Virus record (IMG/VR): IMGVR_UViG_3300049459_000229
Span: 1-64,000 of that record
Source of the DNA: a virus
Reading direction: 5' to 3' (one strand)
Length of the DNA stretch: 64,000 bases
In this document: piece after piece, positions 9,210-61,858 of the stretch
How the letters are laid out: each line of letters starts with the position of its first letter
Numbering within the stretch: position 1 is the first letter of the stretch
Made by a program: the position numbers and the translations under genes
The notes under the pieces: model-generated
What the model saw: the letters and a program-made list of their open reading frames with translations, nothing else
The model's database searches: none
Told to the model about the DNA's origin: nothing

Positions 9210-10907
9210 TCAGTGCTTGACGCGGAAGCTGCCGAACAGCGGGATGCCGACGAAAGCGATGTCGCGCGACGCGGTCGCCATCAGCTGGCTTGCCACGTGC
9301 AGGTAGCCCAAGGTGTGCATGAAGTGGTCGTTGCCTTCCTTGGATTTCGTCCAGGTGTAGTAGAGCTCCTGGTGCTTGTCGAAGGCCTGGGTGCGCTTCA
9401 TGTCGACCATGTGCAGCTTCCACAGCGTGTCGGTGTGGTCGCCCTGCTCGACCCAGCTGATGGCGCCGGCTTTGTACATGTTCATCACCTCGTCGAAATT
9501 GACGTCGCGGTGGATCTTGGCCTGGTTGATCGGCAGCTTGCCTTCAGCCTCGTTCTTGTCGACCATGACAATCTCATAAGTCGCCAGTTTCAGGCTGCTG
9601 TTGTAGACGGCGCCGTACAGGTTTTTGTCCTGGCCCTGCATCCGGTGCACTAGGTTGGTCTCGGGGAAGGCGTCGACCACGGTGATCAGGACGCGCCACT
9701 TCGCGGCCAGCTCGCGCCGGCGAAGCTCAAGTTTGGCAAGTGGTACCTGCTCGCGGTAGCAGACCAGCAGCCGGTTATCCATCGTACGTCGGCCGATCGC
9801 GATGTGGCAGATTTGACCGACGTCAATGCCCATGGCATGCAGGTCGCCGGTGTGCAGGCTGCCGTTGGTATATTTGCACTTCTCGACGTCGGCGTCGGTC
9901 AGCTGGCTGCTGCCGGCGTCGGCCGTCTCGCCCAGCGCCTGGTTGACAAATTCCGCCCAGGTCTTGTACTTCGTGATCTCGAGGATCAGTGAAGGAATCG
10001 TGACGATCTCCGGCACCTCGAAGGGCGTGACGTAATAGCCGATCGCCTCGAACTGGTCCTGCGGGTTCTCGCAGACCCATTCGCGGTGTTCCGGCGCTAG
10101 GCTGGGTTCTTCGTCGCAGGCCGGGCAGTGCAGGCGCGCCTCGCGCCAGCGCAGCTGGTCGATATTGTGCTTGTTGATGTCGCGGAACTCGCCCGCGTAA
10201 TCCGGAATCTTGACGTGCTTGTGGAAGCTCGGGACGAACTGGGTGCCGCAGTGGTTGCAGGTGCAGGCGCGGCGCATGCGACGCGCGGCCGCCATCTCCA
10301 GCGCGATGCCGCGGCCTTCGGTCGTCGGCGTGCCGAAGCGGCGCGTCAGCTTCCATTTGCTGTGCTTGATGCGCGACTGAAACTGGGCAAGGGTGTCCGG
10401 ATCGCTCCGGTCAACCTCGTCGTGGATCAGCATGTCGGCCGGCACCGACAGCGCGGTGGTCGAGCCGGAGCAGCCGCGCATGTACAGGAGGCTGGTGCCG
10501 ATCGACTTGATGCTGGCGTTGTTCAGGTCCTTGTCGATCGACTCGCGCAAGTCGGGTGACTCGTCGATGATGGGGTCGAGGCGGGTCTTGGTGAAGTTGA
10601 CGGCGTCGTTGGCGAACGGCAGCGTCATGATCACCGAGAAATAGGGCATCACGCGGGAGACCGCCAGCGCGTAGCGCGCCATGCACTCGGACATGCCGAC
10701 CTGGGCGCACTTCTGCACGTACACCGTGCGGCTGGTGTCGGAGATGATGTCCTTCTGGAACTCGTGGTCGACGAACGAGAAGCGGTCGCCCTTGAGGAAG
10801 GTCTTCTCCTCGAGGTAGCGTACGACGTCGTTCAGGTCGTAACTGTTGAACAGCGCCTGCTCAAGGCGCTTCAGGTGCTCGACGAGCGCGGGGTCGGCGT
10901 GGCTCAT
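9210..10907 (-). CDS. terL: Terminase large subunit (packaging ATPase-nuclease)
   Basis: The 565-residue product has the two-domain plan of TerL. In the ATPase half, KCAQVGMSE (about 66-74) is in the Walker A position but with G-M-S in place of GK[ST], and MLIHDEVD (about 159-166) is Walker B. A zinc-ribbon-like insertion follows (C216-x2-C219 and C260-x2-C263), as in GpA-type terminases. The second half carries MGIDVGQ (first nuclease acidic residue) and later acidic/His residues typical of the RNase H-like nuclease. It powers DNA translocation into the prohead and cuts the concatemer. The start overlaps the small upstream gene by ATGA. Confidence 0.93.
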   Translation of the reverse strand: MSHADPALVEHLKRLEQALFNSYDLNDVVRYLEEKTFLKGDRFSFVDHEFQKDIISDTSRTVYVQKCAQVGMSECMARYALAVSRVMPYFSVIMTLPFANDAVNFTKTRLDPIIDESPDLRESIDKDLNNASIKSIGTSLLYMRGCSGSTTALSVPADMLIHDEVDRSDPDTLAQFQSRIKHSKWKLTRRFGTPTTEGRGIALEMAAARRMRRACTCNHCGTQFVPSFHKHVKIPDYAGEFRDINKHNIDQLRWREARLHCPACDEEPSLAPEHREWVCENPQDQFEAIGYYVTPFEVPEIVTIPSLILEITKYKTWAEFVNQALGETADAGSSQLTDADVEKCKYTNGSLHTGDLHAMGIDVGQICHIAIGRRTMDNRLLVCYREQVPLAKLELRRRELAAKWRVLITVVDAFPETNLVHRMQGQDKNLYGAVYNSSLKLATYEIVMVDKNEAEGKLPINQAKIHRDVNFDEVMNMYKAGAISWVEQGDHTDTLWKLHMVDMKRTQAFDKHQELYYTWTKSKEGNDHFMHTLGYLHVASQLMATASRDIAFVGIPLFGSFRVKH

Positions 10908-11466: not shown

Positions 11467-11609
11467 TAGATGGTCCCCAGGAATTTGAAGATGTCGCGGG
11501 CGGCGACCGCCAGATTGGCCAGCACCCAGCTGCAGATCATGACGATGACTGTGCCGACCACGGTGATCGCCACCATGACGCTGGCGTTCGGGCTGCGCTG
11601 GATGCTCAT
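11466..11609 (-). CDS. 47-residue single-span membrane protein
   Basis: The product has 47 residues: a short polar N-terminus, a long hydrophobic segment (VMVAITVVGTVIVMICSWVL) and a short amphipathic tail. It starts inside the stop region of the HTH gene and its TAA overlaps the next start, so it is part of a tight chain. It is one of two tiny membrane genes flanking the candidate small terminase. A holin or membrane-anchoring role is possible but unsupported. Confidence 0.65.
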   Translation of the reverse strand: MSIQRSPNASVMVAITVVGTVIVMICSWVLANLAVAARDIFKFLGTI

Positions 11610-11893
11610 AGGCCGGCCTTGATGCGGTAGATGGTGCGCTCGCTGCAGTGGGCAGCTTTGGCGGCTGCCTTCACCGGCATGGTCGCCGCGGCGTTGCGGC
11701 GGAATTCGGCGCGCTGTTCGCGTAGCTCTTTGCTGCTGGGGGCGCGCACGAGATCCTCGCGCTTGACGCCCATGCGCGCGAAGGTGCGGCAAACGTAGGT
11801 TTCATTGGTGCCGAGCAGGCGCGCGACCTCGCGGCCGGTGATTTCCCGGCGGCGCCATCGGTCGATGTAGGGTTTGAGGTCGTCGCGTAGCAT
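11606..11893 (-). CDS. Helix-turn-helix DNA-binding protein, regulator or small terminase
   Basis: The 95-residue basic protein has two HTH-like segments: residues about 18-40 (TGREVARLLGTNETYVCRTF) and about 74-94 (AAAKAAHCSERTIYRIKAG). Two HTHs in one short chain suggest a site-specific DNA binder. As first gene of the packaging operon it could be the small terminase subunit that recognises the packaging site. As the gene beside the divergent control region it could also be the repressor that binds the paired palindromes at 12226-12262. The ATG lacks a Shine-Dalgarno and sits just after a GGCATACT -10-like box. Confidence 0.7.
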   Translation of the reverse strand: MLRDDLKPYIDRWRRREITGREVARLLGTNETYVCRTFARMGVKREDLVRAPSSKELREQRAEFRRNAAATMPVKAAAKAAHCSERTIYRIKAGL

Positions 11894-12225
11894 GCAATAA
11901 GTATGCCACGAAGCAAAGTTTTTGCCTAGAAACTGTGGAAAATAGGTAAAAATTTTGAAAAATTTCAGAAAATTACTGAAAAATCAGTAACTTATGTGGA
12001 AAGTTATGTAATTTATTTGAAAAGTTTGAAAATGGATTGGATATTTTTGGGGGCCCAGGAGCCGGCGCCGGCCTGCTTGCTACCAGGAAAGTGTACCCGT
12101 CCACACGCATCAAAACGACGCCTGCGCCGCCCTCTTTCCTGACGGCCGCACCGTCGTCCGAAATCCGCGCGTCACCTAGGCTGTTCTGGCGCGTTTAAAC
12201 CACATTGCAGTTAAGCAATATCCGA
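11894..12225. other. AT-rich divergent intergenic region, candidate origin or control DNA
   Basis: No gene is seen. Positions 11915-12045 are strikingly AT-rich for this genome, with many A and T runs and two AAGTTATGTA/AAGTTTGAAAA-like repeats. From 12046 the DNA becomes GC-rich, with the perfect palindrome GCCGGCGCCGGC at 12061-12072. Easily melted DNA between divergent operons is a common site for a replication origin or strong early promoters. Neither can be proven from sequence alone. Confidence 0.45.
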
Positions 12226-12262: not shown

Positions 12263-12422
12263 CACCACATGGCACGATTCTTGCCCATACGCCGGCATAG
12301 CCATCATCTATCAATAACCAGGTTCTGATTAATAAATGCAACTGTCCAGTATCACAGGTAATTGATAATATGGAGTCTCAGTAGTGCCCATTCATCAGCT
12401 GTTCACCCATAGGAGATACACC

Positions 12423-13181
12423 ATGAAAGCCACCCAATCCCGCGCTGTTGCCATGTCCGATGTGTTTCGCGCTGTCGCCGGTTCCGCCGAAGCGCAATTC
12501 GACCTGATCGCCTGCACGGTCTATTCCGCTGCCTACTCCATCATGCAGGCTGGCAACAAAACCCAGTTCAACAAGCTGGCTGCTGACGCCGCCATGTACG
12601 GCGTCGCTACCACGGAATCACGCAAGCTGGTGCGCGGCGTGCTCGGCATCAAGACCATGAACAGCGCCGCCAAGCACTTCGAAAAGGTGTACTTCGCAAT
12701 CCACGCCACGCTGGCCGCGTTCCCTGCGCCGGAACTGATCAAGGACCTGCCGCGTAGCAAGGACGCGCAATTCGCCATTCTTGACCCGCTGGCGTCCGGC
12801 TACGCGGACCAGTTCACAGCCAATTTTACAACGATCATGCTGACTCCGGCGCGTACCGCTGACGAGCAGGCCGAAGCGGATGCCGCGCGCATCGCCAAGA
12901 AAGCCGAGAAAGAGGCCGAAGCGGCGCGCGCCGCCAAGGTTGCCGAGCGTGAGGCCCGCAAGTCGTTGGACGCCACGATCGCGGCACGCGTGGAACAGGC
13001 AGTGGACAAGGCGACCGCACCCGACACCATGGCGCGCACCGTGGCCGATATGCTGGTGGCCGGTTCGCTGTCGGCTGAGCTCGAAGCCATGCTGATCGAA
13101 GCGGCGCGCACCCGCGAAACCGCCGTGCTGCTGGCGCGTGTCGCCAGCACCGCACCCGAAACCGAAACCGAAGCGGCCTGA
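12423..13181 (+). CDS. Conserved hypothetical protein with coiled-coil middle
   Basis: The product has 252 residues. I start at the ATG with AGGAGA 7 bases upstream and not at the in-frame ATG 39 bases earlier. Residues 1-120 are mixed and look globular (QFDLIACTVYSAAYSIMQAG). Residues about 145-190 are an Ala/Glu/Lys/Arg coiled coil, and the C-terminus is helical. It is the only long gene transcribed rightward from the divergent region and is followed by large hairpins, so it is probably a monocistronic, separately controlled gene. I do not recognise the family. Confidence 0.75.
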   Translation: MKATQSRAVAMSDVFRAVAGSAEAQFDLIACTVYSAAYSIMQAGNKTQFNKLAADAAMYGVATTESRKLVRGVLGIKTMNSAAKHFEKVYFAIHATLAAFPAPELIKDLPRSKDAQFAILDPLASGYADQFTANFTTIMLTPARTADEQAEADAARIAKKAEKEAEAARAAKVAEREARKSLDATIAARVEQAVDKATAPDTMARTVADMLVAGSLSAELEAMLIEAARTRETAVLLARVASTAPETETEAA

Positions 13182-13469: not shown

Positions 13470-13556
13470 ATGGTAGTAAATAACGGGCTTAGAAAGCCCG
13501 GCAGCGATGAGCTGAGCCGCTTTGGCAAGTGGTGGCGCCTTTCCCGGCGCGAATAG
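13470..13556 (+). CDS. Possible 28-residue peptide gene
   Basis: An ATG with AGGA 5 bases upstream opens a 28-codon frame (MVVNNGLRKPGSDELSRFGK, then WWRLSRRE) ending in TAG. The product would be basic with a Trp-Trp pair. The frame lies on top of two strong hairpins, so it may be chance within an RNA element or a leader peptide. Low confidence. Confidence 0.3.
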   Translation: MVVNNGLRKPGSDELSRFGKWWRLSRRE

Positions 13557-13820: not shown

Positions 13821-14119
13821 GCAGGAAGACAATTTCGGTTCCAATAAAAACGGACCTAAAAATTAAAATGTCAGAATTAATTAAAATTCTGCCAAAACCG
13901 CATCCCTGTATCATCCCTCAGCCAGCGATAGAAACGCGTTCCCGCCTGTTCGATCCTGAGATTATTGAGGTGCCGAAACGCAAAAAGCCTGGCCGTGTCA
14001 GGCAGGTAGAGAAAGGCACGATGAATATCGCGATGCCTGAATTGCGTAAAGGCACGATGAATCGTCCGGATAAGTCGCAGCAAATCACCAAATTAACTTT
14101 CGCCTGGAGTGCAGCATGA
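13817..14119 (+). CDS. 100-residue Lys-rich hypothetical protein with internal repeat
   Basis: The product has 100 residues and is highly basic and Pro/Ile-rich (SVPIKTDLKIKMSELIKILP). The 15-base direct repeat AAAGGCACGATGAAT (14012-14026 and 14048-14062) gives the peptide KGTMN twice, 12 residues apart. Codon use is AT-richer than the surrounding genes, for example many AAA and ATT codons. It overlaps both neighbours by 4 bases. It is probably disordered and possibly nucleic-acid binding; no family is recognised. Confidence 0.65.
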   Translation: MSRKTISVPIKTDLKIKMSELIKILPKPHPCIIPQPAIETRSRLFDPEIIEVPKRKKPGRVRQVEKGTMNIAMPELRKGTMNRPDKSQQITKLTFAWSAA

Positions 14120-14286
14120 ATTACACCGCACGCAAATCGCTTGCCAAAGACCGCACCAGCATGCCCTTCGTGGTCGAGCACGCATCCGGCCGCATCGTCG
14201 CCACCTGCAAGACTTGGGCTGATGCGATCAACGAACGCAACCGCTTCAATGCCATGGAGCTGTTCGCCAAGTTGGCCGAGGCATAA
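14116..14286 (+). CDS. 56-residue hypothetical protein
   Basis: The product has 56 residues (MNYTARKSLAKDRTSMPFVV...) and is coupled to the previous gene by ATGA. It has a short strand-turn-strand (FVVEHASGRIVATCKTW) followed by a helix (ADAINERNRFNAMELFAKL), a compact alpha/beta mini-fold typical of small phage accessory proteins. It ends 8 bases before the stop of the convergent minus-strand gene. No function is recognised. Confidence 0.6.
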   Translation: MNYTARKSLAKDRTSMPFVVEHASGRIVATCKTWADAINERNRFNAMELFAKLAEA

Positions 14287-14293
14287 GAATTTC

Positions 14294-15034
14294 TTATACC
14301 CCCTGCCAGACCGAGCCGTCAGGCAAGATCGCATCGACCCGCGAGGTTGAAGCGTTGAAAAGAAACGCCACGGCGCCGGCCAGCACGGCCTTGATGCGCA
14401 CCCGGTAATCATCGGCCACGTGGCAGGCAACCGGGATATGCATCCATGCATCGTTGTACCAGTGCCACTCGCGGCCCGGAATCGCCTTGGGCCGCGCCGG
14501 GCGCACCGGGCGCTCATGCTCCGGACGCGCAGCAGGTACCAGTTCAGGCTTGTACTGCGCCAGCTCGGCAAGGTGTTGCGCGCGCAGCTCGCGCTGTACC
14601 GTCTCCAGCCTGAGGACGTAGGCATAGTCCTTCAGGTAGAAGTCTCGCGCCATGTCTTCCCAGTCCTTGCGGCACAGTCGGCTATTGATGTGCAGCCGCG
14701 TGCTCAGGGGGTGCTTGAGCAGGTTTCCCACCACGGTCTCGCAGTAGCGCAAGCGTTTAATGCGCGCCGGGTAGAGATTATCCTGGGAGAAATCGAAAGG
14801 GTCTTCCGAGAGCTGCACGATGGGAAACTCCGGCCAGTTGCCATAGATCAGGCACCACGCGATCGAGGTGCCGAGGAGCTTCTCAGTCTTGAACAAAGTG
14901 ACAACTTGTTTGCCGTCCCGGCTCTTGAGCAAGGTGGCGCTGCCTGTCGTAAGTTTGCGGTACAGCTTCGAGCCTTCCAGCACGAAATACTTATGCACTT
15001 GTTCCGGGGGCAACAGATTGTTGAGATTCAGCAT
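14294..15034 (-). CDS. HNH/AP2-like protein apparently lacking catalytic histidines
   Basis: The product has 246 residues; the ATG is preceded by AGGAG and by a promoter at 15060-15088. Residues about 15-95 follow the phage HNH-homing-endonuclease layout: F-x-L-E-G-S-K-L-Y-R-K, then DGKQVVTLF, SIAWCLIYGNWPEFPIVQLS, DPFDFSQDNL. Where active enzymes have His (usually A-H-R-x-x-W and I-D-H), this protein has T-S and Q-L, so it is probably not a nuclease. The middle is helical and Arg-rich; the C-terminus is unrecognised. It is the only minus-strand gene in this area. Confidence 0.55.
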   Translation of the reverse strand: MLNLNNLLPPEQVHKYFVLEGSKLYRKLTTGSATLLKSRDGKQVVTLFKTEKLLGTSIAWCLIYGNWPEFPIVQLSEDPFDFSQDNLYPARIKRLRYCETVVGNLLKHPLSTRLHINSRLCRKDWEDMARDFYLKDYAYVLRLETVQRELRAQHLAELAQYKPELVPAARPEHERPVRPARPKAIPGREWHWYNDAWMHIPVACHVADDYRVRIKAVLAGAVAFLFNASTSRVDAILPDGSVWQGV

Positions 15035-15059
15035 GGCAAGCTCCTGTAGTTGAGCTAGA

Positions 15060-15088
15060 ACTATACCATAGAATTCGTGTGCGCCCAA
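15060..15088 (-). promoter_or_regulatory. Promoter of the HNH-like gene
   Basis: On the minus strand TTGGGC and TATAGT are separated by 17 bases. The ATG with its AGGAG site lies 26 bases below the -10. Confidence 0.65.
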
Positions 15089-15545
15089 GGGTCTCTCATA
15101 GTAGGGCCACCTCACCAAAAGTAACTCTATATTTCAGTAAAAATTTTCTGTTCCTGTAGAGGGGGGTGGGGGGTAAATTCGTGTTTTTCAAAAGTACGTT
15201 TCTGTACCCTTATTTCTTCTCCAGCAAAAATCTCAAATTGGGGGGGGGGGGGTCTCTACGGAAAACGGCCCTCTAGATTACAACTTAACCCTAAGGTAAT
15301 TCCAGAAAACACGCAAAATTACCTACCCTCAAATAAGTGAAATGTGAGGTTGTGGTAAGTTACCTGTAAGGTCATCCGCGCATTTAAGTTACAAATTGCA
15401 ACTCTGCTATCACTATAAGTGAAACTGTAAGTTGCTTGGGTGAAACATTCTGAATTACCAGATTCTGCCACTTATTCTGTGCTCTTATTTTCCGAAAATT
15501 CCAGTGCCTCGTCCGATCTTTAATTTTTACAGTTCACTTAAATCT
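15089..15545. repeat. Divergent intergenic region with G-runs and iterated TAAGT motifs
   Basis: No gene is seen. Two G6 runs lie at 15161-15173 and a G13 run at 15240-15252, enclosed by GTAGAG and CTCTAC. Further right, five same-direction TAAGT(G/T) elements start at 15334, 15356, 15385, 15416 and 15428; two share TAAGTGAAA and two share TAAGTTAC. AT-rich DNA plus short iterated sites beside the first gene of a long operon fits an origin or an early-promoter control region. The G13 run may also be a length-variable site. Confidence 0.5.
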
Positions 15546-15716
15546 ATGTTCCCTCTATTCAAGCGCATCACCCTCAAGGACGTTCAAAGACAGGACATCG
15601 CTGAGCTCGAACTCGCCCTGCACAACGCCCAGCTCAGCCTCGAGCGGCAGCAAGCCGACGTCGCCCGCCTCCAGACCTCCCTTGCCCGCCTGAAAGCCGA
15701 ACATGCGAACCCGTGA
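15546..15716 (+). CDS. First gene of the accessory operon, small helical protein
   Basis: The product has 56 residues (MFPLFKRITLKDVQRQDIAE, then a coiled-coil-like helix rich in Gln, Leu and Ala). I choose this ATG because small phage proteins beginning M-F-x-L-F-K-R-I-T are familiar to me; an in-frame GTG at 15504 is the alternative. Neither has a clear Shine-Dalgarno. It overlaps the next gene by 14 bases. Function unknown. Confidence 0.6.
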   Translation: MFPLFKRITLKDVQRQDIAELELALHNAQLSLERQQADVARLQTSLARLKAEHANP

Positions 15717-15993
15717 GATCGAAGCCCTCCTCGACGTCGCCCACCACAAAGCAGCCGAGCTTGCCGCCCAGGAGATACGGCACCACTTGCGCCCCTTCAA
15801 CCTCAAGCGCCACCCGCTCGGATACAGCAACATCCCGACGCTGGGCCATGACTCGAACTGCCTGACCTTGGGCGATGTGCCTTACTGGTACTGGACCTAC
15901 GCCCACCCTGCCTGCCAGGCTGTGCGCGAGGCCGGTGAGTACGCCTCCCGCCTGCCGGCCGAAGTCCAACACCGCCTCAAGGAGCACCTATGA
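15703..15993 (+). CDS. 96-residue hypothetical protein
   Basis: The product has 96 residues and is rich in His and aromatic residues in the middle (PTLGHDSNCLTLGDVPYWYW, then TYAHPAC). The N-terminal helix is followed by a compact His/Cys/Tyr-rich core and a C-terminal helix. No zinc-binding spacing is convincing. It overlaps its neighbours on both sides, 4 bases at the downstream end. No function is recognised. Confidence 0.75.
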   Translation: MRTREIEALLDVAHHKAAELAAQEIRHHLRPFNLKRHPLGYSNIPTLGHDSNCLTLGDVPYWYWTYAHPACQAVREAGEYASRLPAEVQHRLKEHL

Positions 15994-16208
15994 GCACCGC
16001 CATGCAGCTCCGCATCCTCAACCACGCCCGCGTCAAGATCGAGGAAGGCCAAACCCTTGCGCAAGCGCTGGACGACATCGCCGCCGCCGACCACCGGCGC
16101 CGCATCCAGACCCTGTGCGCAGGCCTGAAAGCGAAAAGCCCGATCCCCGCCGCAGACAGCCTCAAGCTTGTCGACGCGATCATCAAAGAACTGAAAGGCA
16201 GGCCATGA
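15990..16208 (+). CDS. 72-residue helical hypothetical protein
   Basis: The product has 72 residues and is predicted all-helical (LRILNHARVKIEEGQTLAQA; DSLKLVDAIIKELKG). It is mildly basic. ATGA overlaps at both ends lock it into the operon. It has no motif. Confidence 0.75.
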   Translation: MSTAMQLRILNHARVKIEEGQTLAQALDDIAAADHRRRIQTLCAGLKAKSPIPAADSLKLVDAIIKELKGRP

Positions 16209-16492
16209 ACACCTTCCCCGAACTGCACGCCCATTTCGACAGCCTCGACGCCGACCTGGTCAATGCGTGGCGCCTTACCCTGGCCGGCTTCGACATGACC
16301 CAGACCACCGGCATGCCTGACGCCGTCTTCAACGCGATCGCTTTCGCACACGCCAACGACCTGGCCCAGTTCGTGGGCACGCCGGAATTCACCGAGGCGG
16401 TGACCGAGCAGTTCGGCGAGTTCTTCGCCCAGTTGTGCGGCGCGCCCACCATCAGCACCGCCACCCTCAGCCACACCAGCGTCTGCTGGTAA
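16205..16492 (+). CDS. Hypothetical protein, paralogue of the gene at 26313
   Basis: The product has 95 residues. It shares the pattern N-A-W-[RK]-L-x-L-x-x-F-[DN]-M, then T-T-G, F-A-x-x-x-D, T-P-E-F and E-x-F-G with the product of 26313-26615, over almost the full length, so the two are a duplicated pair. Both look helical and acidic. It overlaps the previous gene by 4 bases and is followed by a 16-base gap. Function unknown; conservation of two copies suggests selection. Confidence 0.8.
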   Translation: MNTFPELHAHFDSLDADLVNAWRLTLAGFDMTQTTGMPDAVFNAIAFAHANDLAQFVGTPEFTEAVTEQFGEFFAQLCGAPTISTATLSHTSVCW

Positions 16493-16508
16493 TTGAAAGG
16501 AAAGCAAC

Positions 16509-16985
16509 ATGACCGCCACCGCTTTCGGCGCCCGCCGCATCGCCGAGCTGGAGTCCCGGCTCGCGGCTGCAAACCAACAACTCGCCGTCACCCGCCTGTC
16601 GCTCGCAGCCGCCCAACGCCTTGCAGGCAGTCTGCAAGACCAGATCGATTCCATTGGCCGTCCGCGCGATGCTGTGGCCCTGCCGGCCGACACCGTCGAA
16701 GACATTGCGCTGCGGCTGCGTGCCGACCAGATCGACTATAGCAAGTGCTTCGGCATGACCACCAGCGTGCTGACCGAGCTGACCGAGCGACTCAAGGAGC
16801 CTGACTTCGAGCGCCTGAGCACCTTGCGCATGAGCGAGATAAGCGAGACCGAGCAGGCTGACGCCTTGGAAGGCTGGCTTCGCGCCAACGTGCGCTACTT
16901 CGATCTACCGATCGCCAGATACGGCGCCACCAACCACATCGAATTCCTCCTCCGCCGCATCGACTACCTCCGGAAAGGCAAATGA
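16509..16985 (+). CDS. 158-residue hypothetical protein with N-terminal coiled coil
   Basis: The product has 158 residues. Residues about 8-50 form a coiled coil (RIAELESRLAAANQQLAVTR), followed by a helical domain ending in HIEFLLRRIDYLRKGK. The ATG has GAAAGGAAAG upstream, one of the few separate ribosome sites in this block. No catalytic residue pattern is visible. The next gene overlaps by 4 bases. Confidence 0.75.
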   Translation: MTATAFGARRIAELESRLAAANQQLAVTRLSLAAAQRLAGSLQDQIDSIGRPRDAVALPADTVEDIALRLRADQIDYSKCFGMTTSVLTELTERLKEPDFERLSTLRMSEISETEQADALEGWLRANVRYFDLPIARYGATNHIEFLLRRIDYLRKGK

Positions 16986-17329
16986 TGCTCACCAAACAAC
17001 ATCTCCCCATCCTGCTCAAGGCGCGCGAGCTGGTCGATAACGGCCATGACTACTTCATCTGCCACGCAATCAAGCGCGCTGGATCGCTCCTCGACATGCA
17101 TGTCGCAGCCCGGCAGGCGCACCAATACATCAAGCATGAGGTAGGCCTCGGCACCCTGGCAGGCTGGGTGATGGACGACATGACCACGAGACTCGGTGAG
17201 CGCGCCATCACCAACAAGTTCGGCCACCTTGTCGAGCCCTACCTGGTAACGCTGATCAGCAACGGCAACCAGCTCGCCCGGCTTGCCTGGCTCGACAAGA
17301 TGATCCACGACATCGAGGCCCAGCCATGA
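16982..17329 (+). CDS. 115-residue helical hypothetical protein
   Basis: The product has 115 residues, mostly helical, with a Cys/His-containing segment (ELVDNGHDYFICHAIKRAG) that I have seen in other small phage proteins but cannot name. ATG-ATG double start; the first overlaps the previous stop by ATGA. The C-terminus (LARLAWLDKMIHDIEAQP) is amphipathic. Confidence 0.75.
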   Translation: MMLTKQHLPILLKARELVDNGHDYFICHAIKRAGSLLDMHVAARQAHQYIKHEVGLGTLAGWVMDDMTTRLGERAITNKFGHLVEPYLVTLISNGNQLARLAWLDKMIHDIEAQP

Positions 17330-50330: not shown

Positions 50331-53273
50331 ATGAGCGCATTCCACTACTACCAGATCAAGGGTGGCGAGGAGGGTTGGCAGCCAGTGCCGGTATCGCACC
50401 GTGACCAGACCATTGCCGATATCCACCCGATGTTCATGACCGTGCTGGCGGTGTCCAAGCTGGTCGACAACCTCACCTACGAGGAAAAGCTGAAGCTGGC
50501 CTACATGGGGCCGTTCTACTCGGACTTCGACTCGGAAGACGGGACCCTGGTCATCGAGAAGACCAACGAGTACCTCGACAAGCTCGAGGCCCTGGGCGTC
50601 AACCTTGCCATGTGCCGGCTGTTCACCACCGGCGGCCGCGGCTACCACGTCGAGGTGCCAGTCGAGCTTTTCATGGACAAGGTGCCGAAGAATGGCGTGG
50701 TCGGTCTGCCCTCGATCTACCGCGAGATGGCGCTGTCGCTGGCCGTCGATACGCTTGATCTGAAGATATACTCGACCGGGCGCGGCCGCATGTGGCGTCA
50801 GCCCAATGTCGAGCGTGACAACGGCCGCTACAAGGTGCCGATCACGGTTGACGAGATGCGGAGCATGACGCCGGAGGTCGCGGTGGCGCTGTCATCGCAG
50901 CCGCGCGACCCGGTCCCGGTACTGCCGCCAGCGTTCTGTGTCAAGCTCTCGATCGAGTATTCCGCGGCCATGCAGAAGGTCGAGGACCTGCTGAAAAAGC
51001 GCGCCAAGTTCAAGCCGGATCCGCATGTGCGCGAGAAGGCCGGCTGCGCTTCCATCCAGTACATGATGGCAGGCCTCGGCATCAAGCATGGCGTCGGTTT
51101 CCAGGAGATCGCCACCCAGCTGGCGATCGCCGCGGTGGCGGCCGGCCTGTCGGAGGAGCGCTTCGTTGTCGAGTGCTCGGGCCTGATCGAGAATCACCAG
51201 GGCGACGGCAGCCGCTACGGCTCGCCGGCGAAGCGCACCGAAGAGCTGCGCCGCATGCACCGCTACATGGACGGCAACGCCTGCTATGAGTTCTCGGTCG
51301 GTGCCATCAAGACGCTGCTGAACCATCCGGCGCCGGACCTTGACGGCATCACGACCACGAAGGAGGAGGTCAAGGCCGAGATCGAGCTTGCCGCCACCCA
51401 GCTGGACGACCCGGAGCTACAGCAGGATGAATATGCGGACGTGGCCAAGGGCGTCACGCTGTCGCGCTACGGCGTGTATGTCGACGGCGAGTTCGGCAAG
51501 AAGCGGGTCTGCGCGGTGTCGTTCGACGCCGCGGCGATCCTCATGTCAAAAGACAGCGACCAGATCATCGGCTACGACGCCGTGGTGCTGGTCAACGGCA
51601 AATCGGTAGGCGCCATCACGCTGGAGAGCGACATGTTCTCCGGCCTGGTTCCTTTCAACCGGTTCGTGTCGAAATACGGGCACGCCTTTCAGGGCACCGA
51701 TGCCCAGGTAAGGACGGTAATGATGCGATTCGTAGAGCAGGCAAAAAGGAAGGGCAATATCAGCTATGTCGTGGAGCGTGAGGGCCTCGACATGATCACC
51801 ATCCCCCAGCACGAAAACCCACGGCTGCGTGAGCCCTTCATGATCTGGTCCGATGCGCACGGTGTGCGCCTTGAGCCGGAGATCGAGGAGACGGGCTTGA
51901 AGATCAAGTTCGCCGGCTACCCGGATCCGCGTGGCGTGTTCAAGACCGACATCTCGAATGCGCCGGCGCTGGCCAGTTGGCTGGAGGAGCCGAACAACAA
52001 GGAGCTGCTGACCGAGACGCTCGAGCATCTGTTCAAGTGCCAAAAGCCCGAGGTGCTGGGCAAGATGCTGGGCTGGTATGTGGCCTGCTTCTGGAAGCAG
52101 CTGTTTCAGAAGCACTACGGCAAGTTTCCGCTGCTGCATATCAACGGTCCGGCCGGCCTCGGCAAGACCGAGAGTCAGCTTGGCCTGGCGTCGATGTTCT
52201 TCTGGCGCGGCGAGGCGCGGCCGCTCTCGCCCGGCTCGACCAACTTCGCGCTGCTGCAGCACCTGATGGCGTCGTCCTCGATCCCGCTGATCCTTGATGA
52301 ATACAAACCGCACGTGATGCAGAAGACGCGTCTGGACCAGCTCAAGGGTCTGCTGCGCGACGTCTACAACCAACGTGACCAGGCGCGCGGCGGCGGCTCG
52401 CGCGAGAGCGATGATTACCGCGTGCTGCAGTTCTCGCAGATGGCCGCGCCCATGGTGTTTATCGCCGAGGCGGCCGAGGAGGAGGCCGCGGTGATGGAGC
52501 GCGTGGTGCTGGTGACGCTGTCCCGCCCACATCAGAGCGAAGGCCTGCGCCGGCATGCGCACTGGCAAGCCTACTGGCGCAATCGCCACCTGCTGGGAAT
52601 CCTCGGCCAGTACCTTGCGATGACCCTGGTGGAGGGCGGCGCCGGCGAGCGCTTTGTCGAGGAGTTCGACGAGCTGTATGCGGACGCGAAGCGCCAGTTC
52701 ATGTTGTCCGAGGAAGACCTGAAGGGCGGCCTGGAGCCGGAGCAGCTCAAGGAAAAGCAGAACACCAAGGAGCGTCCGGTCTACAACCACACGGTGGCAC
52801 GCTTCGGCATGCGTCAGTTGCGCAACCTGGTGAACGATGCGATTGGCCCGAAGTTCGACGGCATCATGGCCGAGATGGAGCAAGGTGTCTTCGCCCGCCT
52901 GCACGACCTGCATGCGGCAACGACGCCGGAGTATATCAAGGTGCTGTCCGAGATTTCCAGCATGAGCCACCACATCGAGGCCGACCGCCAGGATGCGATC
53001 CGCAAGAACTACGAGTACGCCTTCGTCGAAGCAGGCGGGCGCGCGCTCATCGAGATCGCGATCCGGCCGGCCTATCAGCGCTACCGCATGCACTGCCGGG
53101 CGACCGGGCTGGAGGCGCTGTTTGGCGGCTTCGAGAGCTTCGCGCACTCGGTGCAGGACTGCAGCGCGTTCGTCAAGCGTGGTACTGGCGAGAAGCTGCA
53201 GGCGCCGGGCGTATTCACGTTTGACGCGGATGAACTTGCACGCCTTGGCGTCGACGTATTTAAAAGCAATTGA
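50331..53273 (+). CDS. AEP-type primase fused to a helicase/ATPase domain
   Basis: The product has 980 residues. The N-terminal AEP-like primase shows DFD (D65 and D67), the GGRGYH motif (101-106, H106) and D143 in TLDLKIYSTGRGR, the catalytic set of archaeo-eukaryotic primases. A middle region (about 200-560) links to an ATPase with Walker A INGPAGLGKTES (about 604-612) and Walker B PLILDEY (about 650-656). It would synthesise primers and unwind DNA at the fork. The start lies 7 bases past the previous stop. The helicase family is not certain; a superfamily 3 or RecA-like assignment both fit what I can see. Confidence 0.82.
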   Translation: MSAFHYYQIKGGEEGWQPVPVSHRDQTIADIHPMFMTVLAVSKLVDNLTYEEKLKLAYMGPFYSDFDSEDGTLVIEKTNEYLDKLEALGVNLAMCRLFTTGGRGYHVEVPVELFMDKVPKNGVVGLPSIYREMALSLAVDTLDLKIYSTGRGRMWRQPNVERDNGRYKVPITVDEMRSMTPEVAVALSSQPRDPVPVLPPAFCVKLSIEYSAAMQKVEDLLKKRAKFKPDPHVREKAGCASIQYMMAGLGIKHGVGFQEIATQLAIAAVAAGLSEERFVVECSGLIENHQGDGSRYGSPAKRTEELRRMHRYMDGNACYEFSVGAIKTLLNHPAPDLDGITTTKEEVKAEIELAATQLDDPELQQDEYADVAKGVTLSRYGVYVDGEFGKKRVCAVSFDAAAILMSKDSDQIIGYDAVVLVNGKSVGAITLESDMFSGLVPFNRFVSKYGHAFQGTDAQVRTVMMRFVEQAKRKGNISYVVEREGLDMITIPQHENPRLREPFMIWSDAHGVRLEPEIEETGLKIKFAGYPDPRGVFKTDISNAPALASWLEEPNNKELLTETLEHLFKCQKPEVLGKMLGWYVACFWKQLFQKHYGKFPLLHINGPAGLGKTESQLGLASMFFWRGEARPLSPGSTNFALLQHLMASSSIPLILDEYKPHVMQKTRLDQLKGLLRDVYNQRDQARGGGSRESDDYRVLQFSQMAAPMVFIAEAAEEEAAVMERVVLVTLSRPHQSEGLRRHAHWQAYWRNRHLLGILGQYLAMTLVEGGAGERFVEEFDELYADAKRQFMLSEEDLKGGLEPEQLKEKQNTKERPVYNHTVARFGMRQLRNLVNDAIGPKFDGIMAEMEQGVFARLHDLHAATTPEYIKVLSEISSMSHHIEADRQDAIRKNYEYAFVEAGGRALIEIAIRPAYQRYRMHCRATGLEALFGGFESFAHSVQDCSAFVKRGTGEKLQAPGVFTFDADELARLGVDVFKSN

Positions 53274-54245: not shown

Positions 54246-54953
54246 TTGGACATGCAAGAACAAGAGTCGCGCCCGCTCGCCTTCGTCATCGCTGATACCG
54301 AGACCACCGGCTTGACCGGCCCGGCCTGCGAGGTGGCCTTCCGCGAGATCTGCCCGGATACGCTGGAAACGATCCGCGAGATTCAGTCCCTGATCGACCC
54401 GGAATGCGAAATCGAGCCGAAGGCGATGGAAATCCACGGCATCACGCAGGAGATGGTAGCAAGCGCGCCGACGATGGCCGAATTCATTTCGACGCCTGGC
54501 TACCTCGACGGTGCTTTCGATGGCCGCAACATTGTGATCATCGCCCACAACGCCGCGTTCGACGTCAAGCGCCTGCACGCCGTCGGTGACATCGTCTCCT
54601 CTATCTGTACGGTGTTCCACAGCCGCCAGCTGATCGGGACCGAAGTCCCCAACCACCAGCTGCAGACCCTGCGCGAGCACTTCGGCTTCCCGGTCAACGA
54701 GGCGCACCGCGCCATGGCTGACGTGGCGACCACGCACCGCCTGCTGCGCGAGCTGATGGGCCGCGCCGGCCGCCGAACCTTGCGCGATTTCTACGAGACG
54801 CAGGAGACGACCGTGCACCGCTGGCCGTTCGGCAAGCACCGCGGCCAGCTGCTGCTGGAAACGCCCAAGGAATACCTGCTGTGGTTCAAGAAACAGGATT
54901 GCGATGCGAACCTGAAGAAGAGCATCGAGAAGGTGCTGAAGGCGATGAAATGA
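54246..54953 (+). CDS. DnaQ-like 3'-5' exonuclease, probable TTG start
   Basis: The product has 235 residues. The DEDDh set is present: D17-x-E19 in ADTETTGL, D106 in HNAAFDVKRL, and H154/D159 in HRAMADVATTH. The C-terminal part (WPFGKHRGQLLLETPKEYLL) is the DUF3820-like domain often fused to exodeoxyribonuclease X-type enzymes. It would proofread or degrade DNA. A TTG at 54246 is 7 bases after AGGAG, whereas the ATG at 54252 is 13 bases away, so the TTG looks like the real start. Confidence 0.86.
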   Translation: MDMQEQESRPLAFVIADTETTGLTGPACEVAFREICPDTLETIREIQSLIDPECEIEPKAMEIHGITQEMVASAPTMAEFISTPGYLDGAFDGRNIVIIAHNAAFDVKRLHAVGDIVSSICTVFHSRQLIGTEVPNHQLQTLREHFGFPVNEAHRAMADVATTHRLLRELMGRAGRRTLRDFYETQETTVHRWPFGKHRGQLLLETPKEYLLWFKKQDCDANLKKSIEKVLKAMK

Positions 54954-58146: not shown

Positions 58147-58304
58147 AATGGGTGATCTTCGCAGCCGTGATGGCGGTTGCGGGCTTTCACTTCTGGGCCG
58201 CGCGTCGTGCAGCCAGGCTGCGGGACTGGGAATGGAATCGGCACTTCACGGTGCTTGGCCACATTGTGCTGGTGATGGCCGTGGTCATAGGGAGCTATAA
58301 ATGA
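58143..58304 (+). CDS. 53-residue membrane protein
   Basis: The product has 53 residues with hydrophobic segments about 2-16 (WVIFAAVMAVAGFHFW) and 36-52 (VLGHIVLVMAVVIGS), a basic loop (ARRAARLRDWEWNRH) between. Two spans with loop inside (positive-inside rule). Overlaps both neighbours by 4 bases. Function unknown. Confidence 0.64.
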   Translation: MKWVIFAAVMAVAGFHFWAARRAARLRDWEWNRHFTVLGHIVLVMAVVIGSYK

Positions 58305-61300
58305 AAAAATACCGCCGTGGCGCCTTCGACATGTCGTCCTTCATGTGGACGATGATGTCGTGGCGTAAGGACAAAGAGAACGGCTACGAAGTCGAGCACG
58401 AAGGCAAGAAGGTCTACATCAACAGCGCCGTGTACGGCTTTGATAATACGCTAGGCCGCATGCTCGACTGCATGAAGGCCTATAAGCTCAACCCGATCGA
58501 CGTGATCCTGGTATTTGAAGGCCAGAACAGCAAGGGCAAGCGTCTGCTGATCGACAACCAGTACAAGGGCGGCGGCGAGAGCAGCCGCCCGCCGCAGGCC
58601 TACGAGGAGTTTCACAAGCTGCGCGAGATGCTCAAGCAGACCTTCCTCGAGTTGGGCGCCCAGGCCATGTGGCAGGACTTCGCCGAGGGTGACGACACGC
58701 TCGCTTGGCTGGCCCAGAACACCGAGGACGACCTGATCGTCTTCACGTTCGACAACGACCTGACGGCGTTGAATATGCACCCGAACGAGCACGGCGCGCG
58801 CGTCTCGACGTGGATTAACGAGATGTTCGAGTACAACAAATATGGCCTGTTCGACTACCACCTGGTCACCACCTACAAGGCGCTGGTCGGCGACAAGTCG
58901 GACAACATCAAGGGTTGTCCGGACTTTGGCGCCGGCAAGCCGGGCAGCGCGTGGGAGCGCCTTGTCGATAAGTACGGTTTCGATGGTGTGCAGCAGATTC
59001 ACGACATGCTGGTCAAAAGCGACCTGTCGCCGCTGGGCGACTTCATCGGGCCGGACGACAAGCTCCTGCAGATGATCCTTGACAACGCACCACAGGTGAT
59101 CCGCTGTTTCGACCTTGCCCGCCTGCGTCCGGAGTGGGTCAACACCATGCGCCAGCCGCTGTGCTGGGAAGCTGGCATGGTGCGCCAGCTGGCGCCTACT
59201 GACCATGACCCGCGCCTGAAGCCCTGGTACGGCCGCACGCGACTCGTCACCGGTGGCACGTTCGAGCAGGCCATTGCCTGGGCCATGCCGCATATCCTCG
59301 CCTCGCGCGAGATCTCGCTCGATATCGAGACTGCGACGCCCGATGAATCGGACGAGTGGCTGGCTGCACTGGGTGACCCGGACGGCGTCGACGTGTTCGG
59401 CTCGTTCCTGGTGGGTCTGGCTCTGACCTTCGGCCCGAACAACCAGTACAGCCTGTATTTCTCGGTGCGCCACGCCGAGACCGGCAACGTCGACAGCGAA
59501 GCCTTGCGCCAGTTCATCGCCTCGATCCCGCAGGACAAAGAGCTGATCATCCAGAACGTCTCGTTCGAGCTGGCGGTGCTCTTCAACGAGTGGGGCGCGC
59601 GCCAGATGGACAACGGCTACCACGGCTTCCTGCCCAATGTGCTGGACACGAAGTTCGAGGCGAACTATGTCAACGAGAACATCCCGGTCGGCCTGAAGGA
59701 GCGCTCGCACGGCACCTTGGGCTACCGTCAGCAGACCTACAAGGAGACGTGCGAGATCACGGCACCAGTGGACCAGCTGTTCCCGGGCGGGCGCCTGGTG
59801 CGCGAGGACTACGTCTACGAGACGATCGGCACCGGCAAATTTGAGCCACTGACCGATGAGGAGGTAGCCGCTGGCGTGGTGCCGGCCGAGATTATGAAGA
59901 CGCAGCTGGTCGAGGTCGACGGCGAGCCGGTCGTGGCGACGCAGACGCGCCGCTACAAGATGAGCGAGCTGCCGGCGGCGCACGTGCTTGGCTATGGCGT
60001 CGACGACACGATCTGCACGATCGCCCTGCACAACTACTACAAGCTGTTCATGCAGCTGGAGCACTCGTACCAGACCTACCTGCAGGTGGAGATTCGCGCA
60101 GCCTATCAGCACGCGAAGAACTTCATCGACGGTACCGAGGTCTCGATCGCGCGCTGCAAGGAGCTCGAGCGCGAGGACGACGCTACCTACGACGCTGCCT
60201 GGGCGACGGTGCGCGAGTATCTGATCGAGCAGGGCTGGGCCGGCACCACGCCGCCGACCTACACGGTCGACATCACGCCGGCGCAGATCAAGGAGGCGTA
60301 CACCATCGTGACCGGCGAGACGCTGGACACGATGATGCGCACGCCTTCGAAGATCGTGACCTTCATCCGTACCGAGACCGAGCACCTGCAGTTTGCCGAG
60401 ATGCTCGATCGCCTAGTGCAGGCGAAAGCCTACGCCGACGGCAACGCGCATACCCTGCCAGCCGGCTCGGTGGTGGCTGAGATCGAGAAGGACTTCACCG
60501 CCTATGTTCGCAGCTACTTCAAGGGTGAGCCGCAGTTTAACAAGGGTTCGCCGATCCAGATGCAGCGCCTGATGTACGAGGTGATGGGCCTGCCGATCAA
60601 GGTGCGCAACATGCCGACCGAGGCCATGAAGAAGGCCGGCATCCGCGAAGGTTCGCCCAAGACCGATCTGCTGGCGGTGGCCTACGGCTTGCAGGACTGC
60701 ACACCGGAGCAGAAGCCAGTGCTCGAAGCCCTGAAGCTGATGGGCATGGTCACCACGCGCCGCTCGCTCTACTACTCGAAGTATCCATACTTCACGCACT
60801 GGAAGGACGGCCGCGTACGTTCGCAGCACAACCAGTGCTCGACCGTGACGCGCCGCGCCAGCGAGTCGAAGCCCAACAAGCAGCAGCTGCCCAAGCACCA
60901 GAAGATCGAGGGGCAGGAGGCCAAGTTCCGCGAGGTCATCGTGCCGCACCGGCCGGGTGCCGTCATCGTCTCCATGGACTTCGACTCGCAGGAGATGGTG
61001 CTGATCGCCTACCAGTCGCAGGATCCGAACGCGCTGTCTTGCTTCCAGGGTGAGAAGCGCAAGTCGCCACACACGATCACCGGCCTGGGTATCATCCGCG
61101 AGGAGGAGGGCCTGGACTGGACGTACGAGGACTTCGAGGCAGCGCTGGCCAGTGGCGACAAGGTGCTGGCCAAGCACGTCAAGGATATTCGCAACCTGGG
61201 CAAGAAGGTGAACTTCACAGCCGAATACGGCGCCATGGCCGAGAAGGTCGCCGCTACCCTGATGATCCCGGTCGAACGCGCGCAGCTGTTCCTCGATGCG

Positions 61301-61858
61301 CGCGAGGCGATGTATCCGGTTGCCCAGCAGTGGAAGGAAGACATCAAGGCCGAGGTCAAAGAGTTCGGCGTGGTGCGTACCCTCGGCGGCGGTGTGCGCC
61401 ACCTGGGCGACCAGCTGCTGAACGGCACCAACTTCGAGAAATCGAAAGCAGAGCGCCAGGCGGTCAACTTCAAGGTGCAGGGTCCGGCCGGCGAGCAGAC
61501 CAAGCTTGCGGAAGGCCGGATGTGGGACGACAACCTGTTCTACGACTTCGACGCGGTTTGCTACGGGCCGATTCACGACGAGGTGGTGGCCTCGGTGATG
61601 ATCGAGGACCTGCCGGCCTTCCTGCCGCGCATGCACCGCTGCATGACGGCGCCGTTCGCCACGATGGATCTGGAAGTGGTGTCGACCATCTCGTTTGGCC
61701 CGAACTTCTACCGCCAGACCGAAATCGGCGCCTACCCGACGCTGGAGGCTATCCGTGACGGGCTGCTGGAGATGCACCTCGGGATGATTGCACGCGGCGA
61801 GACCACGTGGGAGCAGTCGTGGATTGAGAATGAAGTAAAACTTTTGGAGGCAGCATGA
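58301..61858 (+). CDS. Family A DNA polymerase with 5' nuclease and 3'-5' exonuclease domains
   Basis: The product has 1185 residues, longer than E. coli Pol I (928). Residues about 1-260 are a 5' nuclease domain (EGDDTLAWLAQNTEDDLIVF, then VGDKSDNIKGCPDFG). Residues about 330-500 are a 3'-5' exonuclease (LDIETA with D341/E343). Residues about 840-1150 are the polymerase: motif A SMDFDSQEM (about 891-899), motif B RNLGKKVNFTAEYG (about 962-976), motif C IHDEVV (H1092-D1093). All three activities appear intact. It is the phage replicative polymerase. Confidence 0.92.
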   Translation: MKKYRRGAFDMSSFMWTMMSWRKDKENGYEVEHEGKKVYINSAVYGFDNTLGRMLDCMKAYKLNPIDVILVFEGQNSKGKRLLIDNQYKGGGESSRPPQAYEEFHKLREMLKQTFLELGAQAMWQDFAEGDDTLAWLAQNTEDDLIVFTFDNDLTALNMHPNEHGARVSTWINEMFEYNKYGLFDYHLVTTYKALVGDKSDNIKGCPDFGAGKPGSAWERLVDKYGFDGVQQIHDMLVKSDLSPLGDFIGPDDKLLQMILDNAPQVIRCFDLARLRPEWVNTMRQPLCWEAGMVRQLAPTDHDPRLKPWYGRTRLVTGGTFEQAIAWAMPHILASREISLDIETATPDESDEWLAALGDPDGVDVFGSFLVGLALTFGPNNQYSLYFSVRHAETGNVDSEALRQFIASIPQDKELIIQNVSFELAVLFNEWGARQMDNGYHGFLPNVLDTKFEANYVNENIPVGLKERSHGTLGYRQQTYKETCEITAPVDQLFPGGRLVREDYVYETIGTGKFEPLTDEEVAAGVVPAEIMKTQLVEVDGEPVVATQTRRYKMSELPAAHVLGYGVDDTICTIALHNYYKLFMQLEHSYQTYLQVEIRAAYQHAKNFIDGTEVSIARCKELEREDDATYDAAWATVREYLIEQGWAGTTPPTYTVDITPAQIKEAYTIVTGETLDTMMRTPSKIVTFIRTETEHLQFAEMLDRLVQAKAYADGNAHTLPAGSVVAEIEKDFTAYVRSYFKGEPQFNKGSPIQMQRLMYEVMGLPIKVRNMPTEAMKKAGIREGSPKTDLLAVAYGLQDCTPEQKPVLEALKLMGMVTTRRSLYYSKYPYFTHWKDGRVRSQHNQCSTVTRRASESKPNKQQLPKHQKIEGQEAKFREVIVPHRPGAVIVSMDFDSQEMVLIAYQSQDPNALSCFQGEKRKSPHTITGLGIIREEEGLDWTYEDFEAALASGDKVLAKHVKDIRNLGKKVNFTAEYGAMAEKVAATLMIPVERAQLFLDAREAMYPVAQQWKEDIKAEVKEFGVVRTLGGGVRHLGDQLLNGTNFEKSKAERQAVNFKVQGPAGEQTKLAEGRMWDDNLFYDFDAVCYGPIHDEVVASVMIEDLPAFLPRMHRCMTAPFATMDLEVVSTISFGPNFYRQTEIGAYPTLEAIRDGLLEMHLGMIARGETTWEQSWIENEVKLLEAA

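Follow-up and report, generated by a model that had tools for sequence, protein, structure and literature searches.

The non-coding gap at 15035-15545, which separates the divergent genes 14297-15034 (leftward) and 15546-15716 (rightward), is very probably a control region. We read it, at nearly an even chance, as the control region of divergent early genes, with a rightward leader that carries a G tract of variable length, specific to one clade, which possibly slows or stops RNA polymerase. The part of this reading in which the tract itself acts on the polymerase is tentative. If it holds, the tract would be a very simple, fast-evolving dial on phage early expression, and a mechanism known from mitochondria would gain a bacterial model. 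In either case the candidate operator motif GTAANT and the predicted promoter map are testable in phages of 85-93 kb that form one family and are known here from IMG/VR contigs alone.

The phage family and its divergent gap

The window (the whole stretch of 64,000 nt that was analysed) is taken from a virus record of 87,830 nt, of which it covers positions 1-64000. Because the two ends of this record have 127 nt in common, it probably represents a closed assembly of 87,703 nt. Family searches assigned a GpA-type terminase, a primase-like protein and a DNA polymerase A within the window; beyond it lie a thymidylate synthase and an SbcCD-like pair, and no RNA polymerase was found among the 19 different proteins scanned. 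Among the named phages listed, the nearest terminases (26-29% identity) belong to Vibrio phage SHOU24, Pseudomonas phage PMBT3 and Caulobacter phage Seuss, whose genomes of 78-87 kb are comparable in size to the window's record and which are too remote for a comparison of the gap. The features used below are as follows.

9210-10907, minus strand: GpA-type terminase (family search)
14297-15034, minus strand: 246-aa protein with an HNH_3-like N-terminal domain (alignment of 14 relatives, weak family hits, structure model)
15060-15088, minus strand: predicted leftward promoter, -10 TATAGT at 15065-15060 and -35 TTGGGC at 15088-15083, spacer 17, placed by eye
15104-15133, plus strand: predicted rightward promoter, weak -35 GGGCCA at 15104-15109, GTAACT at 15121-15126 in the spacer, -10-like TATATT at 15128-15133
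15161-15173, plus strand: G6TG6 tract (sequence), of which L003 and L009 retain one G6 with GTAAA directly after it
15240-15252, plus strand: G13 tract, which starts 119 nt downstream of GTAACT, with equivalents in six relatives
15296-15322, no strand assigned: inverted GTAATT pair, the first copy 175 nt after the promoter GTAACT (172-175 nt in those 5 of 7 clade gaps that contain another forward motif)
15334-15458, both strands: further GTAANT and TAAGT copies (sequence, motif scan)
15546-15716, plus strand: first rightward gene, 56 aa (translation; homologues in place in seven other contigs)
50331-53273, plus strand: primase-like protein (family search)
58301-61858, plus strand: DNA polymerase A (family search)

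Relatives were collected by a terminase search of IMG/VR, which gave 31 loci. Fourteen homologous gaps were analysed: one is the window's, and the other 13 come from loci of that search (L003, L005, L006, L007, L009, L010, L012, L014 and L016-L020); all were located via the HNH-like leftward gene and therefore adjoin it. This count leaves out L004, L008, L011, L013, L015, L021 and L022, whose contigs end short of the gap, L023-L033, whose terminase identity is at most 32%, and two more contigs with an HNH-like gene, G016 (= L049) and G017. The gap borders come from tblastn hits, with the right borders of the distant gaps placed by eye. We also compared nine long phage records of 85-93 kb, six of which are clade records, namely the window's and five relatives (G001 = L003, G002 = L009, G003 = L005, G004 = L006, G005 = L007). 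In the terminase tree all phages with a G or C run in the gap fall, L009 included, in one fully supported group of nine; in the other two members, L004 and L008, the gap could not be read.

The left limit of the gap is at 15035, and the rightward start codon nearest to it is at 15546. The divergent arrangement is kept across the 14 gaps, and the window's first rightward gene has homologues in seven other contigs. In the ORF list, gene 15546-15716 is followed by a long run of small ORFs on the same strand, which we infer to be an early operon. The first-pass annotation had placed its candidate origin or control DNA in AT-richer DNA, and this description holds: the lowest-GC 300-nt windows of the record fall within the gap, and the lowest-GC 300-nt window lies at the gap in all nine long records. 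No Rfam family reached its gathering score in the window, the leader RNA is not unusually stable compared with shuffles (z -0.89), and a scan of 15035-15545 for intrinsic terminators found none.

The protein encoded to the left of the gap matched no family at E 0.01. At E 0.1 an HNH PHROG was matched by 9 of the 14 members, including the window's (E 0.037), and Pfam HNH_3 by three members, the window's not among them. Its AlphaFold2 model (pLDDT 91, pTM 0.62) resembles, among the families compared, I-HmuI best (Z 5.3 over 79 residues, rmsd 3.0) and then I-PpoI (Z 2.5-3.2), modest levels that possibly reflect a common arrangement alone; Foldseek returned no match at E 0.001. In the alignment column that we take to be the position of the catalytic histidine in the HNH motif, 11 of the 14 members, the window's included, have Q, and the others have H, C and I, one each. 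We found no match to the protein in 50,697 phage records (tblastn, E 1e-5) and no cellular relative among the 41 stretches matched by two peptide patterns. Judging from the weak family hits, the confident model and the alignment, the protein looks like a former HNH endonuclease, and such a degenerate HNH protein would suit a role as a DNA-binding regulator.

Predicted promoters and the GTAANT motif

Promoter-like sites are predicted in both directions at the left end of the gap. For the leftward one, the scan preferred a -35 of TGGGCG with a spacer of 16, and the score in the window is not above that of shuffles (55% of them reach it). Of the 14 gaps, eight have their best leftward sigma70-like site at 26-88 nt from the gap start, where shuffles predict 1.7, for a range picked after the data were seen; a conserved block surrounds the ACTATA at the predicted leftward promoter. 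The rightward site at 15104-15133 ranked third among the rightward sites of the scan, none of which was prominent. Most of the promoter scores do not exceed those of shuffles, and a strict promoter scan of 14000-17000 found none.

The rightward site is better described by its composite form, AxGTAAYT or GTAAGT followed after 0-5 nt by TAnnnT, which is present at the left end of the gap in six of the nine long records. It is missing at the gap in G001 and everywhere in G007 and G010, and the -10 boxes of L003 and L020 are poor. Elsewhere the composite occurs once each in the window's record (G000) and in G002, both times directly ahead of gene 12426 or the corresponding gene, and once in G001, with one more on the opposite strand inside the G008 gap. 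We take the composite, on its sequence, as a predicted rightward promoter with a putative operator in the spacer. The second copy in the window, GTAATT with a -10-like site at 12356-12371, stands ahead of the conserved gene 12426-13181 (plus strand), and likewise in G002.

The motif in the spacer of the rightward site recurs within the gap. The first-pass annotation had listed five TAAGT(G/T) repeats in one direction, and these are present at 15334, 15356, 15385, 15416 and 15428 (spacings 22, 29, 31 and 12), all on one strand and each followed by G or T. Five same-strand copies of TAAGTK were reached in 1 of 5000 local shuffles (mean 0.56), and ACTTA also occurs three times in the window's gap. 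When the 14 gaps are pooled, one-strand TAAGTK shows hardly any enrichment (13 copies, 7.4 expected, p 0.04). GTAANT, counted on both strands, occurs 73 times in the 14 homologous gaps against 23.7 expected (sd 4.7), a number that none of 500 shuffles reached, and it is singly enriched at p <0.05 in nine of the 14 gaps and clearly not enriched in those of L017 and L019. The variants differ between phages: L012 and L014 use mostly GTAAGT, and L003, L005, L006 and L009 use GTAAYT without GTAAGT. Judged by this comparison, the one-strand TAAGT pattern is a peculiarity of the window's phage and a partial view of GTAANT. Thus the "iterons" of the earlier description were right as to a repeated motif and wrong as to which motif is repeated.

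GTAANT is also concentrated at this place in the genome. The gap is the densest 400-nt window for the motif in eight of the nine long records (the exception is G010), and the window's record has only two clusters, this gap and 11.95-12.36 kb. At the second place, two of 10 regions are singly enriched, the window's (p 0.007) and that of L009 (p 0.04), and the other eight are not; pooled, the 10 regions, of which L011 and L012 are near-copies, have 25 copies against 11.8.

Under the reading we favour, back-to-back predicted promoters (15060-15133) would drive the HNH-fold, DNA-binding-like protein leftward and, rightward, an untranslated leader of about 400 nt followed by a long series of small genes, presumably early. 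The GTAANT sites would be operators for a sequence-specific phage protein, one of them lying between the rightward -35 and -10, and candidate binders are the divergent HNH-fold protein and a small HTH protein encoded at 11606-11893. Such an arrangement resembles the divergent early control regions of tailed phages of lambda type, with their repeated operators, in its back-to-back promoter-like sites, in the repeated motifs within or beside these, and in the DNA-binding-like protein encoded next door. It differs from them in that no recognised repressor family is present, the 6-nt motif is on both strands, and the long leader contains a G tract.

The G tract in the rightward leader

The G runs were described correctly from the start, with two G6 runs as G6TG6 at 15161-15173 and the G13 at 15240-15252. 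The G13 is the sole G or C homopolymer of at least 7 in the 87,830-nt record, and a run of 13 appeared in none of 100 whole-genome and none of 5000 local dinucleotide shuffles, the longest being 12 in either. Long G or C runs are scarce across the record as such: dinucleotide-shuffled genomes have a mean of 8.9 homopolymers of at least 7 where the record has one, a contrast of which codon use may explain part, since the shuffles do not preserve codons.

The seven clade gaps are compared below; each line gives the tract, the distance from the GTAAYT of the rightward site to the tract start, the distance from that motif to the next forward GTAANT where present, and the hairpin p values (right strand, left strand) discussed later.

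Window: G13; 119 nt; 175 nt; 0.55, 0.47
L003: G15; 118 nt; 172 nt; 0.11, 0.13
L009: C7; 121 nt; 175 nt; 0.41, 0.30
L005: G7; 121 nt; 174 nt; 0.05, 0.18
L006: G10; 118 nt; no entry; 0.013, 0.003
L007: G7; 120 nt; 174 nt; 0.17, 0.65
L020: G6; 120 nt; no entry; 0.023, 0/300

The tract thus starts 118-121 nt after the motif in all seven clade gaps, and the distance to the next forward motif is independent of run length, while outside the motif-tract segment the lengths differ by tens of nucleotides. The tract is the longest G or C run of the record in all six long clade records, and a search for G8 on both strands of 11 relatives' records found it in two, solely at the tract position. The first-pass annotation had suggested a comparison of G-run length between clones. 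Between species the length does vary, from 6 to 15 with one strand flip (the C7 of L009); within a species no variation was seen, the scan for near-identical strains with a DNA pattern in viral_contigs having matched L020's contig alone. That pattern required AACGGCCC after the tract, which made L003, L006 and L007 unfindable, and the window's own record is possibly outside the collection. Among the literature matches listed, no G tract or poly-G element was described in phage control regions.

The closest competitor of our reading is a plain divergent promoter/operator region in which the G tract is selectively neutral, a leftover of mutation in one clade that slippage has lengthened, and we regard it as a distinct possibility. 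The tract is confined to one clade, with no run of at least 6 in any of the seven more distant gaps, from which we conclude that the region does not need it to work. One of these run-free gaps, that of L016, has GTAATT sites at the same spacing of 175 nt (at 93 and 268, with another at 180), and L012 and L014 have a spacing of 207 each. The strand flip in L009 also suits a neutral relic; the C7 there, in place of G7, counts against a tract that acts on the polymerase. Against neutrality stand the scarcity of G and C runs in the rest of the record, the constant position of the tract in all seven clade gaps despite terminase identity down to 81%, and the spacing from motif to motif, which stays at 172-175 with runs of 7-15, so that a longer tract does not make the segment longer.

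In the favoured reading, with a tract that acts on polymerase, the leader's non-template strand would carry the G tract 107 nt downstream of the predicted -10. The G-rich RNA could stay with the DNA or form a hybrid quadruplex, and a share of transcripts that depends on tract length would then pause or stop before the early genes. We count for this reading the low GC content of the gap, the enrichment and clustering of GTAANT, the composite rightward site, the shared zone of the leftward sites, the fixed spacing, the longest-run status of the tract and the precedent of CSB 2 in human mitochondria. Against it we count the C7 of L009, the lack of a tract in the distant gaps, the poor outcome of the promoter scans, the records without a composite site at the gap, the two gaps without GTAANT enrichment, and the ordinary stability of the leader RNA and of the tract hairpin in the window.

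Whether the runs could form quadruplexes by themselves, as the earlier description had allowed, depends on the pattern used. The canonical pattern (four tracts of at least 3 G, loops of 1-7) is absent in the window and is present in one of the seven clade gaps (L003), and the two-tetrad pattern fits both tracts of the window. A hybrid RNA:DNA quadruplex needs less than the four-tract, three-tetrad pattern. A hairpin of the tract with downstream C's was compared with 300 shuffles in which the run was held fixed. The p values are suggestive of a tract hairpin in L006 and L020; as the window's is no better than the shuffles (p 0.55), we do not claim one. We also rejected an intrinsic terminator at such a hairpin, as no T-run follows it in either direction.

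At CSB 2 a longer G tract correlates with more termination, T7 RNA polymerase is reported to follow that trend on continuous tracts of G9 to G13, and R-loops may prime replication (PMC5027508). That paper gives the CSB 2 tract as G5AG7 in the reference sequence, with six then seven to nine G's in the commoner variants. CSB 2 and the gap are alike in being a non-coding control region with promoters, in natural variation of tract length, and in an interrupted non-template G tract downstream of a promoter, here G6TG6 plus G13 after a predicted one. A G tract placed some 100 nt beyond the promoter, here a predicted one, fits the sequence in six of the seven clade gaps, with a C run in L009, and the length heterogeneity is that between species. 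The two differ in polymerase and organism, in the restriction of the phage tract to one clade, and in the C7 of one relative. A true phage counterpart of the CSB 2 switch, in which the length-variable leader tract as an RNA:DNA hybrid quadruplex would set read-through versus replication priming, seems unlikely to us.

The origin question and the skew switch near 12 kb

Replication may also be considered for the gap itself: an R-loop formed by the promoter transcript at the G tract could prime the leading strand, or a phage initiator could melt the AT-rich DNA via GTAANT iterons. In favour are the motif cluster, the genome's lowest-GC window at the gap, and the position of the G tract beyond a predicted promoter, which resembles the mitochondrial control region. 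AT-rich DNA and repeated short motifs are likewise shared with iteron-type origins. However, such origins have regular same-strand tandem copies, while the spacings of 22, 29, 31 and 12 are irregular and the shared motif is on both strands; the proteins bordering the gap match no recognised initiator family; and distant relatives lack the tract. The switch in strand composition is also elsewhere: the cumulative GC-skew maximum is at 12.05 kb, 3 kb from the gap and beside the HTH and terminase genes, though it is weak evidence on the origin because skew tracks gene direction in the window's phage. We therefore consider an origin in the gap improbable. Of the two functions first proposed for this DNA, it is control that has gained, from the divergent genes, the promoter-like sites in both directions and the densest motif window in eight of nine records.

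An even poorer candidate is a phase-variable promoter, with tract length shifting within a population to switch expression: the lengths of 6-15 among relatives would suit it, yet the tract lies 107 nt after the predicted -10, outside the -35/-10 spacer, and the narrow pattern found no near-identical strain with variation within a population, so that we hold it to be very unlikely. An earlier placement of the G tract inside the -35/-10 spacer was dropped with the same promoter assignment.

The skew maximum is itself a regular feature of the family, lying 147-192 nt from the start of the HTH gene in seven of the nine long records (the exceptions are G007 and G008). At 11893-12080 there is an A-tract array of AAATTT-like units and then the GC-rich block GGGGGCCCAGGAGCCGGCGCCGGCC, and array and block are present in the 10 regions compared. 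This place may be a packaging site or an origin. In L008 the counterpart of 11893-12080 contains an extended array of GCAAAAAGTTGCAGAAAAATT-type repeats. The nearby small HTH protein (11606-11893) weakly matches families of phage late activators and D5-like regulators.

Two further observations concern other parts of the record. The exonuclease at 54252-54953 has an extra C-terminal match to Pfam QSregVF_b (E 2e-7). At 13470-13556 there is a 28-aa ORF ending in DELSRFGKWWRLSRRE, whose DNA is 75-92% identical in eight relatives while its surroundings diverge.
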